Part shown: piece after piece, positions 370-6,547 of the stretch
How the letters are laid out: each line of letters opens with the position of its first letter
How positions within the stretch are numbered: the stretch's first letter is position 1
Assembly: GCA_018669795.1 (NCBI GenBank)
Contig: JABHSQ010000008.1
Coordinates: 62,001-126,000, forward strand
Length of the DNA: 64,000 nucleotides
Origin: Flavobacteriaceae bacterium
Lineage (GTDB): Bacteria > Bacteroidota > Bacteroidia > Flavobacteriales > Flavobacteriaceae
Reading direction: 5' to 3'
Position numbers and translations under genes: made by a program
Notes under the pieces: model-generated
Databases searched by the model: none
What the model was told of the DNA's origin: nothing
Seen by the model: the letters and a program-made list of their open reading frames with translations, nothing else

Positions 370-1098
370 ATGTTAAAAAGCAAAACAATAAAAACGATTA
401 CATCAAAAAAGATAAAGCTAGTTACTTTAGTTTTATTATTAGCGAATAGCATTCTTTTTGCACAAGGAAATCATTTGAAAATAGAGATTAACCCATTTTT
501 TAAAACAAAAGTTTTAAAAAAAGACTCTTGGTATGTTTCAAAAAACAATGATTCACTTCAGTTTTCTAAAATAAAATTTTACCTAACAGATTTTAAAATT
601 TTAACAAAAGAAGGTAAAACCAAGCAGCTCCCAAATAGTGATTTCTTAGTAAGTATTTTTAATGTTGAAAGTAGAAGTATACTTCTAGAAAACATCAGTT
701 ATAAAACAGGAGATCAATTATTATTTAACATAGGAGTGAACGAAAAAATGAATACTTCAGGAGCACTTTCTGGTTCTTTAGATCCTGCTAATGGTATGTA
801 TTGGTCTTGGCAAAGTGGTTATATTAACTTTAAGATAGAGGGAAAAAGTCCTAGCTGTAGCACTAGAAAAAACAAATTTCAATTTCACATTGGAGGCTAT
901 AAAAAACCATTTGCTGCTACCCGATTTAAAAGTGTAACTATTACTAATGCAATTAATAATGTACTTATAATTGATTTTGATATTGCTATATTATTTGATT
1001 CTATTGACATAAGTAATCTAAACCAGGTAATGATTCCTGGGAAAGAAGCTATTGAAATCGCTGATATACTTCCGAATTTATTTTCATTAAATGAATAA
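370..1098 (+). CDS. MbnP-like family protein, probable periplasmic copper-binding protein
   Basis: 242 residues with an N-terminal signal sequence (hydrophobic about 17-30, cut near LFA/QG). The body matches the MbnP-like family: KFYLTDF near 69-75, NGMYWSW at 141-147 and FHIGGY at 172-177. In characterised MbnP a Trp is oxidised to kynurenine by the partner di-haem enzyme MbnH, and the product helps bind one Cu(I). Candidate residues here are Trp54, Trp145, Trp147, His35 and His173; which of them act is inference. The last 8 bases overlap the start of the downstream di-haem peroxidase gene, so the two are very likely co-translated as an MbnP/MbnH-type pair. Family assignment is good; metal and function are not proven. 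Confidence 0.8.
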   Translation: MLKSKTIKTITSKKIKLVTLVLLLANSILFAQGNHLKIEINPFFKTKVLKKDSWYVSKNNDSLQFSKIKFYLTDFKILTKEGKTKQLPNSDFLVSIFNVESRSILLENISYKTGDQLLFNIGVNEKMNTSGALSGSLDPANGMYWSWQSGYINFKIEGKSPSCSTRKNKFQFHIGGYKKPFAATRFKSVTITNAINNVLIIDFDIAILFDSIDISNLNQVMIPGKEAIEIADILPNLFSLNE

Positions 1099-2131
1099 AT
1101 TGATAAGAAATATGAGCTTTATTATAGGAATATTTATATGCCTAGGTTTTGTATTGGTTAAAAATGAAGAAGTATTTTTTGAATATCCTGAGTATTGGCC
1201 AAAACCTGTTTATAATTTTTCTAAATTATCAATGACAGAAGAAGAATTTCAGTTGGGACGGCATTTATTCTACGACCCTTTATTATCAAGAGATCATACA
1301 ATTTCCTGTGCATCCTGCCATTTACAAGCTACTGGTTTTACTCATGTTGACCATGACTTAAGCCATGGTATTGAAGGACGTATAGGTACTCGAAATTCGA
1401 TATCAATAATGAATTTAGCTTGGAATACTTCATTTATGTGGGATGGAGGAGTCAACCACATAGAAGTTCAGTCCTTGGCCCCTATTTCTAGCGAAAATGA
1501 AATGGATACCTCTTTAGCTATAATCGTTGAAAAGCTAAATAAGTCTGAAAAATACAACTCTTTATTTCAGAAAGCATACCAAGACAGTCTTGTGACAGGT
1601 CAGAAAATACTATTGGCATTAACTCAATTTGTAGTGATGCTAAACTCCTATAATTCAAAGTATGATAAATACATTAGAAATGAACTTGGAGGTAAATTTA
1701 CTGAACAAGAAAAAATTGGATTAAAAATTTTTAGAAATAATTGTGCTTCTTGTCATAAAGAACCACTTTTTAGCAGCAACGATTTTAAAAACAATGGTTT
1801 AAATGTCGACAGCACCTTAAATGATTTTGGAAGAATGATGGTTACAAAAAAACCTGAAGATTCATTAAAATTTAAAGTACCAACATTACGCAATATTCAA
1901 TTTACGCAACCTTTTATGCATGACGGTCGTTTTGAAACCCTACAAGAGGTAATTAACCATTACACTTCCGAAGTTCAACATAGTCCTACGCTAGCTAATG
2001 AATTACAAGAACAAATAATACTAACACATAAAGAAAAAGTAGACTTACTTGTTTTTTTAAGAACCTTAACCGATCAAAAATTTTTATATAATAAACGTTT
2101 TTCTTACCCTAGAGAAACACAAACTAATTAA
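1091..2131 (+). CDS. Di-haem cytochrome c peroxidase family protein (MauG/CcpA/MbnH type)
   Basis: 346 residues with an N-terminal membrane anchor or signal (about 9-23) and two CASCH haem c motifs at 73-77 and 218-222, the two-domain layout of bacterial di-haem peroxidases. PTLRNI (264-269) and FMHDGRF (275-281) are the conserved C-terminal region that usually carries an axial or active-site ligand. The enzyme should act in the periplasm. Either it reduces H2O2, or, as suggested by the overlapping MbnP-like gene, it oxidises a residue of that partner as MbnH and MauG do. The ATG lies within the last codons of the upstream gene. The family is certain; the substrate is inferred from context. 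Confidence 0.9.
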   Translation: MNKLIRNMSFIIGIFICLGFVLVKNEEVFFEYPEYWPKPVYNFSKLSMTEEEFQLGRHLFYDPLLSRDHTISCASCHLQATGFTHVDHDLSHGIEGRIGTRNSISIMNLAWNTSFMWDGGVNHIEVQSLAPISSENEMDTSLAIIVEKLNKSEKYNSLFQKAYQDSLVTGQKILLALTQFVVMLNSYNSKYDKYIRNELGGKFTEQEKIGLKIFRNNCASCHKEPLFSSNDFKNNGLNVDSTLNDFGRMMVTKKPEDSLKFKVPTLRNIQFTQPFMHDGRFETLQEVINHYTSEVQHSPTLANELQEQIILTHKEKVDLLVFLRTLTDQKFLYNKRFSYPRETQTN

Positions 2132-2151
2132 TAATAATTAAAATTTAAACG

Positions 2152-3501
2152 ATGGATAAAAAAGTATTAAGCCTTATTGCGCTGTTTGCATTTACAATAA
2201 TTACGGTAGCGCAAACCAACCCAATAATCACAGCGCCTATACAAAACCAAACTGGAATTACTGGACGTCATTATATACAAGGAAACTCAACTCCTATAGA
2301 GGATGGTGTATTGGCAAACGTTCAATCTGTTGACTTCTCTGAGGATTGGGTATATATTACCGCAACAGGAATTCCAGCCTATATAACCGGTCCATTTTTA
2401 GATGGCAATCCTTCACTAGCACAAAACCAAAATGCTATTTATAAATTACCATTAACGCCAATTGAAAATACAGGAACACCTACCGCAACAAATGGAGGTA
2501 ATATTGGCATATTTATAAACGGGGTATCCTTGTTTGATTATAGAGACGGTGTGGCATGGAATAATGATACCATGAATCTATGTGGAGGACCTCCAGGTGG
2601 ATACCCACCCTGTCCAGGAGGACCTAATGGCACTCAAGACTGGAATAGAGATGCAATACCTGCAGAAATGGGAGGTTTTGATTGTAATAAAGCCCATCCA
2701 GCTATGGGTAATTATCACCATCATCAAAATCCAAGTGCATTTAATTTAGACCTAATTATAGTATCAAATATTTGTGAAACCTACCCTGCAGACGGCTTAT
2801 ATGTAATTGATACTGAAAGTCATTCTCCTTTAATAGGTTTTGCATATGACGGATTTCCAATTTACGGAGCCTATGGTTTTGCAAATGCAGATGGTGCTGG
2901 TGGAATTGTTAAAATGAATTCCAGCTACGAATTACCGGGTGCAACTACAAGAGTAAATGGTCCTGATGTAGATAATACCTATTTTGAAGGATACTTTAGA
3001 GAAGATTATAATTATGTATCCCATACAGAAGATTTTTATTTAGATGAACACAATGGCCGTTTCGCAATTACACCAGAATATCCAGAAGGTATTTATGCCT
3101 ATTATGCGACCGTAGATGAAAACCATAACTCAGCATATCCATATGCAGTTGGACCTACTTTTTATGGCAATGTAGTGGCTACAAATGTAAATACAATTAA
3201 TGAAGATACTACAAATTACGATTCCTCTTTAGGAATTGAATCATTCGACGAAAGCAACCTTAATTTGGTAATTTATCCAAACCCTGCTCAAGATTTTATT
3301 GCAATTCAATCGAACATGGTTCCTGAAAATTTAAAATTAGAATTGATCAATGAATTGGGGCAAGTTATTTTAAACAATCAAATTTTACAGGGAAGTACCT
3401 TAAGCATCATGGAAATACATACACTTTATGATGGCATTTATTTTTTGAGAGTTTCTAAACAAAATAATTCTAAAACCTATAAAATCATCATAAAAAAATA
3501 A
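2152..3501 (+). CDS. YHYH-domain protein with type IX secretion sorting domain
   Basis: 449 residues. There is a signal peptide (about 1-20), a central YHYH domain whose signature reads GNYHHHQNP (186-194), and a C-terminal type A T9SS sorting domain of about 75 residues beginning near VIYPNPAQDF and ending in the basic KIIIKK. The domain is rich in His, Asp and Gly, and two Cys pairs may form disulphides. It should be exported by T9SS and kept at, or released from, the cell surface. It starts 20 bases after the di-haem peroxidase stop, so it is probably the third gene of that operon. The YHYH domain has no settled biochemical role; metal binding through the His cluster is a guess. Confidence 0.85.
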   Translation: MDKKVLSLIALFAFTIITVAQTNPIITAPIQNQTGITGRHYIQGNSTPIEDGVLANVQSVDFSEDWVYITATGIPAYITGPFLDGNPSLAQNQNAIYKLPLTPIENTGTPTATNGGNIGIFINGVSLFDYRDGVAWNNDTMNLCGGPPGGYPPCPGGPNGTQDWNRDAIPAEMGGFDCNKAHPAMGNYHHHQNPSAFNLDLIIVSNICETYPADGLYVIDTESHSPLIGFAYDGFPIYGAYGFANADGAGGIVKMNSSYELPGATTRVNGPDVDNTYFEGYFREDYNYVSHTEDFYLDEHNGRFAITPEYPEGIYAYYATVDENHNSAYPYAVGPTFYGNVVATNVNTINEDTTNYDSSLGIESFDESNLNLVIYPNPAQDFIAIQSNMVPENLKLELINELGQVILNNQILQGSTLSIMEIHTLYDGIYFLRVSKQNNSKTYKIIIKK

Positions 3502-6127: not shown

Positions 6128-6547
6128 TTATTGAACTGTAATTACTCCATACATGCCATTATGAGCTGAACATTGGTAATAATAAGTTCCAGCAGCTGCA
6201 GGTGCCCAACTAACAACACCATTTGTAGTTCCATTATTACTTACGCCACTTACCTGATCACTTGTTCCGCCACCTTGAACTGTCTTGATATAAAATGGAT
6301 GACTAGCTGCATTTACACTAAAGCTAATTGTCTCTCCTACACTAATTGTTATTGAAGGGTCATTACCGTTAACCCCTCCATTAGCGTCAGTTCCTACAAG
6401 GGTATAATCGTTATCAGAGCTCGCAGTTACAGAAATTGAGTAAGTAGACGATGGTGCATCAGGGGTATCACCATTACTATCGTCATCACTACAAGCAACG
6501 ATTAATACTGTTAAAAGTAAAATTCCAAATTTTTTAATAGTTTTCAT
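6128..6547 (-). CDS. Cupredoxin-domain lipoprotein (plastocyanin/azurin-like)
   Basis: 139 residues. A short signal ends in LIVAC, with Cys19 the probable lipidated residue. The next residues, SDDDS, resemble the lipoprotein export signal that sends flavobacterial lipoproteins to the cell surface. The fold carries a complete type 1 copper site: His83 in SHPFY, Cys126 and His129 in YQCSAHNGM, and Met132. It should be a small blue-copper electron carrier on the outer membrane. It stands alone, about 2.6 kb from the MbnP/di-haem cluster, which may or may not share its physiology. Confidence 0.88.
   Translation of the reverse strand: MKTIKKFGILLLTVLIVACSDDDSNGDTPDAPSSTYSISVTASSDNDYTLVGTDANGGVNGNDPSITISVGETISFSVNAASHPFYIKTVQGGGTSDQVSGVSNNGTTNGVVSWAPAAAGTYYYQCSAHNGMYGVITVQ

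Follow-up and report, generated by a model that had tools for sequence, protein, structure and literature searches.

What does an MbnP/MbnH pair do in a member of the Flavobacteriaceae, and what ties it to a gene for an exported YHYH protein? The question is raised by a stretch of 64,000 nucleotides from a Flavobacteriaceae bacterium (GenBank assembly GCA_018669795.1, contig JABHSQ010000008.1, positions 62,001 to 126,000), hereafter the window, in which three genes follow one another on the forward strand. They encode an MbnP-family protein of 242 amino acids with a non-lipoprotein N-terminus (370..1098), an MbnH/MauG-like di-haem c-type enzyme of 346 amino acids (1091..2131) and a YHYH protein of 449 amino acids that ends in a type A sorting tail of the type IX secretion system (T9SS; 2152..3501). 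Between the first two open reading frames (ORFs) there is an overlap of 8 bases, and the third begins after a gap of 20 bases, just as in the three-gene operon that the initial annotation of this sequence had described. The MbnP/MbnH pair is an uncommon kind of machinery, in which a tryptophan is oxidised to create a copper site. We see an even chance that the trio is the core of a conserved Bacteroidota operon which handles copper at the cell envelope and serves exported proteins. The gene content and order of this operon, its conservation, its motifs and its sorting tails are all directly observed.

The family assignments are clear at the level of domains. The first protein matches PF20243 (E=2e-39) with 135.9 bits against a gathering threshold of 27, while the second carries a Pfam CCP_MauG domain (PF03150, E=2.1e-53) and has as its best NCBIfam match TIGR04039, the 'MbnH family di-heme enzyme' (E=4.2e-63). 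With two CxxCH sites, the CCP_MauG domain and a gene adjoining that of MbnP, this enzyme has three of the features of an MbnH, and the pairing of an MbnP with an MbnH-like partner that was first read from the letters is borne out. The third protein matches PF14240 (E=5.1e-53; 180.3 bits against a gathering threshold of 25) and, over amino acids 374-447 (3271..3492, forward strand), the Por_Secre_tail domain PF18962 (E=2e-12), where it scores 47.6 against 27 bits in Pfam and 47.1 against 23 bits in NCBIfam; its N-terminus bears a putative signal-like stretch, judged by eye. Upstream of MbnP, from position 1 to its start, there is no exact copy of the TAnnTTTG promoter motif. A search for MbnB gave no match in the same genome, having been positive in one control, and a search for MbnC gave none either, yet was silent in all of its controls too and so carries no weight.

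To see the company that this type of YHYH protein keeps, we searched genome contigs with a trio-type YHYH profile and kept the best 80 of at least 420 relatives as loci; as they were picked by YHYH similarity, they show the company of this YHYH type and not its frequency. MbnP and MbnH both lie within 5 kb upstream of YHYH in 53 of the 55 loci that have at least 5 kb of upstream DNA, and both are found in 63 of the 67 loci with at least 2.7 kb, the misses being L059, L064, L074 (where MbnH is present) and L115. If the count is limited to same-strand genes no more than 5 kb upstream, MbnP occurs in 65 and MbnH in 70 of the 80 loci, with several of the remaining loci lying at contig ends. The stop-start overlap of MbnP and MbnH is also recurrent, at 4 bases in 41 and at 8 bases in 7 of 64 pairs. 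Loci carrying the trio include those of Ulvibacter litoralis, Nonlabens xylanidelens and several Flavobacterium strains. A second YHYH gene stands in tandem beside the trio in five loci (L069, L070, L090, L092 and L094). One metagenome-assembled genome, titled Bifidobacterium breve (L053), holds a Bacteroidota-like locus with a trio-type YHYH, an oxidase and a redoxin, and is probably a mislabelled bin.

Two further samples were chosen by genome. Among 249 genomes of the same family, MbnP was found in 119 and a YHYH match, many of which cover just part of the profile, in 73; the order MbnP-MauG-YHYH with close spacing occurs in at least 5 (G000, G063, G122, G151 and G242). In an even phylum sample of 392 Bacteroidota genomes that were at least 85% complete (E<=1e-30 for YHYH, E<=1e-10 for MbnP), a trio-like YHYH occurs in 17 genomes, MbnP in 78 and both in 12. 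The two genes lie within 3 kb of each other on one strand in 8 of the 17 YHYH genomes, six of which have the gene order of the window (G000, G260, G291, G442, G450 and G458) and two of which have YHYH first (G274 and G356). By a rough estimate, random placement would yield far fewer than one such adjacency. MbnP and YHYH are on separate contigs in four genomes (G346, G384, G431 and G619), and 5 of the 17 YHYH genomes have no MbnP match; G512 has an MbnH-like fragment before YHYH on a contig of 5.1 kb. In plasmid records, MbnP had no relative at E<=1e-5 and YHYH had a single partial match. The initial annotation had given a neighbourhood limited to this genome as one finding that would refute its proposal; it is not so limited, either among the loci (53/55) or in the even sample (8/17). 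The third member that it had added to the known pair, a YHYH protein with a T9SS tail, likewise proves to be a recurrent partner, and PF14240 and the tail occur together in 50 of 50 YHYH rows.

The residues expected to form the copper site are kept in the MbnP of the trio. An alignment of 55 rows was made from the window, L033, L035 and the MbnPs of the 80 loci, of which 61 were usable and 52 were taken after thinning at 75% identity, with L055 and L088 left out. In it, M143, W145, W147, H173 and P223 are invariant and M221 is Met in 50 rows, while all 55 match PF20243 (E<=0.001). The WxW motif W145-S-W147 is encoded at 802..810 on the forward strand, and W145 is the expected kynurenine precursor by homology; the codon of His173, the expected copper ligand, lies at 886..888 on the same strand. 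A quick tree of 65 rows (61 distinct, among them 32 of the 61 usable MbnPs), supported by the Shimodaira-Hasegawa-like approximate likelihood ratio test (SH-aLRT) only, places all 42 trio rows together with L130 in one group with an SH-aLRT value of 98, three rows being long-branched. L130 has sigma factor, sensor, MbnP and MbnH genes on one contig, and the YHYH gene of the same genome is on another. A lipobox followed by acidic residues is found in 16 of 19 MbnP rows from settings without trio-type YHYH (14 of 17 distinct) and in 0 of 42 trio rows (40 distinct), as judged by a simple pattern applied to residues 1-45, which could miss a few where the trio ORF start is set too far upstream. Because of this absence, the trio-type MbnP is probably a soluble periplasmic protein. 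Searches of solved structures gave nothing at E<=1 with the MbnP alone and, with a trio-type MbnP profile, channel proteins alone at E 0.29 or worse.

The same genome holds a second, divergent MbnP/MbnH pair on contig C25 (L038, 9620-11462), with lipobox-like N-termini on both proteins, which by eye sits after three similar proteins of about 470 amino acids and before a SUF-like cluster. About 11 kb before the window, a heavy-metal-associated (HMA) domain is fused to a MauE-like membrane domain (L037, 4763-5488).

The di-haem enzyme was compared in 50 rows (the window, L033, L035 and 47 of the 66 enzymes of the 80 loci, thinned at 80%). Its haem sites, both CASCH and both on the forward strand, lie at C73-H77 (1307..1321) and C218-H222 (1742..1756); their cysteines C73, C76, C218 and C221 and histidines H77 and H222 are unchanged in 50/50, and W111, Q127, E137, M276 and H277 are equally invariant. 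W117 (1439..1441, forward strand), the expected inter-haem tryptophan of this enzyme family, is Trp in 49 rows. The nearest solved chain is 6e1c, a 'Di-heme enzyme' (E=8e-39) that we take to be MbnH of Methylosinus trichosporium. W117, Q127 and E137 are common to 6e1c and four solved peroxidases and are therefore non-discriminating. M276 (1916..1918, forward strand), Met in 50/50, aligns with a Met of 6e1c, where the four peroxidases carry Phe. Position 94 is Ile in 49 of the 50 rows, the window among them, and Val in one, compared with His in 3o5c, 1iqc and 6qkn, Val in 9qdt and Ser in 6e1c. This His is presumably the distal ligand of the peroxidatic haem of peroxidases. At both positions the trio enzyme goes with 6e1c.

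Every one of the 66 enzymes from the 80 loci has a HxxHxxxH motif (H85, H88 and H92; 1343..1366, forward strand) directly after the first haem site. So do 11 of 13 enzymes of other trio-side loci, the exceptions being both L125 enzymes, and, where loci have no trio-type YHYH, 14 of 19 rows, among which are two pairs of duplicates. None of its three histidines aligns with a His in the five solved chains, and the motif is possibly an extra metal site.

For the YHYH protein, we assembled 54 diverse rows, 32 labelled as linked to MbnP/MbnH and 22 as unlinked; two linked labels stand on thin grounds, namely L059 (an oxidase and a redoxin alone in 5.4 kb upstream) and L047 (a partial MbnH at a contig end). 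D177, H182, Y188, H189, H191, D233, Y238, D298 and Y317 are invariant in 54/54. The HHH cluster pointed out in the initial annotation is indeed present, as YHHH at amino acids 188-191 (2713..2724, forward strand); it is no separate feature, being the YHYH motif that defines the family, in which a His has replaced one Tyr. An insert with two cysteines occurs in 23 of the 32 trio rows and in 0 of the 22 unlinked rows. With the T9SS tail present in 50 of 50 rows, as given above, the protein is probably exported. In the YHYH tree the linked label needs at least four changes, which means that the link to MbnP was gained or lost more than once and rules out that it marks a single YHYH clade. A structure prediction for window amino acids 20-350 from the 54 diverse rows reached a predicted local distance difference test (pLDDT) value of 86.3 and a predicted template modelling (pTM) score of 0.88; an earlier model, built on 50 close relatives, was of low quality (pLDDT 54.1) and was set aside. 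A Foldseek search of the PDB with this model gave 0 of 53 matches at E<=0.001, and a search of viral folds gave 15 neighbours, 7 of them named: five YHYH/YhyH and two phage structural or baseplate proteins. We found no experimentally tested YHYH function in the literature searched, and no link of YHYH to MbnP or copper proteins among the papers listed from the same literature, outside which most subscription papers fall.

An important aspect of many of these loci is the set of genes around the trio, which we obtained by clustering proteins within 8 kb upstream and 3 kb downstream in all 80 loci. Counts are lower bounds, with clusters present in fewer than four loci left unnamed and one member per cluster named by Pfam. 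An extracytoplasmic function (ECF) sigma factor occurs in at least 44 loci, a small putative anti-sigma factor in at least 30 and a sensor-like protein in at least 45; the 'anti-sigma' label is a guess from position and size, because the two proteins examined matched no Pfam family. Of the 53 full loci, 37 have both sigma factor and sensor-like protein and 28 have all three regulators. A Pfam Metal_resist match (E<=0.001) was obtained for 22 of 45 sensor-like proteins. Sigma factors or sensors of these kinds were found (E<=1e-6) in 0 of 8 MbnP/MbnH loci that lack a trio-type YHYH in the stretch (L038-L042, L123, L124 and L127), one of which, L039, encodes a more distantly related YHYH protein at a distance of about 4 kb. 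Other neighbours include a multicopper oxidase (at least 8 loci), a redoxin (at least 10), a CotH-domain protein (at least 12) and an arylsulfotransferase-type protein (at least 6). The best NCBIfam match of one operon oxidase is CueO, below the cut-off (317 against 525 bits), and eight operon oxidases share 74-90% identity with the first row of their alignment. A T9SS tail was seen on the single examined member each of the oxidase, CotH-type and arylsulfotransferase-type proteins. This wider operon, with an ECF sigma factor, a sensor-like protein and in some loci a CueO-like oxidase, strengthens the reading of the trio as a copper or metal system.

The description of the trio as a surface system applies to part of it. 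It holds for the YHYH protein and, where present, for the oxidase, CotH-type and arylsulfotransferase-type proteins with their T9SS tails, and not for the trio MbnPs, which by the simple pattern have no lipobox. The blue-copper lipoprotein of the window (6128-6547, reverse strand), plastocyanin/amicyanin-like by Pfam and NCBIfam, had been suggested as a relative of the system; with phmmer (E<=1e-3) it matched itself only among the ORFs of the 80 loci, the other fetched stretches and the window, and with no relative near other trios we rejected it as a partner.

Some individual loci show other arrangements. In L036 (5603-7618) the trio has an MbnP identical to that of Ulvibacter litoralis in L043, and its divergent neighbours are Sco1/SenC, a repeat-like protein and a short YHYH protein with a lipobox-like N-terminus. 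In the YHYH-free setting of L040 and L042, a Cys-containing protein of about 130 amino acids precedes MbnP/MbnH and a protein of about 340 amino acids follows; in L042 neither of these matched a Pfam family.

How might such an operon work? By analogy with the biochemistry of methanotroph MbnP/MbnH, the MbnH-like enzyme would oxidise the first Trp of the MbnP WxW motif to kynurenine. The modified periplasmic MbnP would then bind one Cu(I) with the help of His173, the kynurenine pocket and, probably, a Met. Both steps lean on Methylosinus MbnP, for which kynurenine made by MbnH and Cu(I) binding were reportedly described in PNAS in 2021, and on the analogous case of CorA/CorB. In a third step, copper-loaded MbnP would support, or couple to, type IX cargo that folds in the periplasm, that is, YHYH and, in some operons, the CueO-like oxidase; the association of these genes is observed, and the function is what we propose for it. 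Where genes for the sigma factor, putative anti-sigma factor and sensor-like protein are present, expression may respond to metal in the envelope. A stronger version, in which the YHYH protein is itself a surface copper enzyme or carrier that kynurenine-bearing MbnP metallates in the periplasm before type IX export, seems to us rather unlikely.

Several observations weigh against a copper-handling operon of this kind. Every chemical step in the scheme is one that we infer. The window MbnP scores 43.8 bits with its best NCBIfam model, TIGR04052 (MbnP_like_WxW), below the curated equivalog cut-off of 140, and the enzyme scores 213.4 bits with TIGR04039, below the curated cut-off of 362.85; the MauG model, too, matches 50/50 of the enzymes. 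The regulators are far from universal: neither sigma factor nor sensor is found in 15 of the 53 full loci, nor in the window, where the trio stands without an ECF sigma, a sensor-like gene or other extra operon genes. Twenty-three of the 45 sensor-like proteins have no Metal_resist match, and two small anti-sigma-like proteins that were examined matched no Pfam family. The window genome as a whole gave no match to Metal_resist or Cu-oxidase_2, and a distant sensor elsewhere in it is possible because Metal_resist detects just 22 of the 45. Finally, the YHYH domain is also found where there is no MbnP/MbnH, both in phages and in other proteins of Bacteroidota, and in L059 and L129 a YHYH gene is accompanied by oxidase and redoxin genes without a nearby MbnP.

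It is possible, if somewhat doubtful, that two modules merely share one operon, MbnP/MbnH making a copper protein and YHYH being a secreted, copper-independent Zn-dependent hydrolase under the same control. A jumbo-phage paper predicts a Zn site of three His and one Asp, and a metal-dependent hydrolase, for YHYH (PMC7824862), and our invariant His and Asp residues agree with that set: H182, H189 and H191 together with D177, D233 and D298 would supply the three-His-plus-Asp set of such a hydrolase in 54/54 rows, linked or not. That YHYH occurs without MbnP in many genomes fits independent modules as well; the repeated tight linkage of YHYH to MbnP/MbnH speaks against them. The extra histidines of the trio clade can be argued either way. 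Positions 190, 224 and 300 are His in 31, 32 and 29 of the 32 linked rows against 6, 7 and 4 of the 22 unlinked rows, an enrichment that may mean an extra metal site; on the other hand, because seven unlinked rows fall inside the part of the tree that the linked rows form and position 224 is also His in seven unlinked rows, these residues, 224 foremost, may mark the clade rather than the link to MbnP.

Two other explanations concern the enzyme. Were it a classical H2O2 peroxidase, MbnP and YHYH would belong to an oxidative- or envelope-stress response and not to copper handling. ECF sigma systems often respond to stress, a second di-haem peroxidase-like protein follows downstream in at least 8 of the 80 loci, and solved peroxidases have the same residues at the positions of Q127 and E137, though 6e1c has them too. 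We regard this explanation as improbable, given that the enzyme lacks the position-94 His which three of the four solved peroxidases have and shares Met276 with 6e1c, that the overlapping MbnP partner has its WxW, His and Met143 invariant in 55/55, and that TIGR04039 matches 50/50 enzymes with a best E-value of 9.5e-71, which is better than that of the MauG model (5.5e-59). That YHYH is a second substrate of MbnH, oxidised at its conserved tryptophan W164 before export, is very improbable. Type IX cargo crosses the periplasm, within reach of a MauG-like enzyme, and W164 is kept in 32/32 linked rows; it is, however, also kept in 16 of the 22 unlinked rows and is thus probably structural.

If YHYH proteins do receive copper from MbnP, the operon would serve to mature copper proteins destined for export, the CueO-like oxidase being a second client, and this would be the first copper function for the YHYH family, whose predicted fold has no solved relative at E<=0.001 in one Foldseek search. 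Short of that, a conserved operon ties MbnP/MbnH to one exported family, often with a likely metal-sensing switch, so that its role outside methanotrophs becomes testable in named Flavobacteria, and the trio would offer a lead on the YHYH family.

With the methanotroph MbnP/MbnH pairs (TIGR04052/TIGR04039), the trio shares adjacent genes, the WxW motif and the di-haem partner, and such pairs are described as occurring far beyond methanobactin producers (PMC3621798). The trio differs from them in that its genome has no MbnB match, its scores fall below both curated cut-offs and it keeps company with a YHYH protein exported by the T9SS and, in other loci, with sigma and sensor-like genes. Comparable systems of methanotrophs are CorA/CorB and MopE/SACCP, in which a copper protein at the cell surface has a kynurenine near Cu(I) and a co-transcribed di-haem peroxidase (PMC3912023); MbnP is said in PMC3621798 to have no marked sequence similarity to MopE or CorA. 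Like them, the trio pairs a probable copper protein with a di-haem enzyme; unlike them, its exported protein is a YHYH protein, of a different family, and its MbnP shows no lipobox. Upstream of many trios, a sigma factor, a small putative anti-sigma factor and a sensor-like gene stand in a row, an arrangement that resembles CnrYXH-type systems, which, with other ECF systems, use a periplasmic metal sensor; by comparison, the two small putative anti-sigma factors examined have no Pfam match and the window lacks the regulators altogether. The YHYH family (PF14240) is reported from phages and diatoms as well as bacteria. Viral YHYH domains are often fused to tail or baseplate proteins (PMC7824862), and YHYH is among the domains tied to phage host recognition (PMC7029224). 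The trio's YHYH protein has the same domain as these and as other Bacteroidota YHYH proteins, viral YHYH having been recovered by the fold search, and differs from them in that most trio rows (23/32) add the two-Cys insert and the extra histidines.

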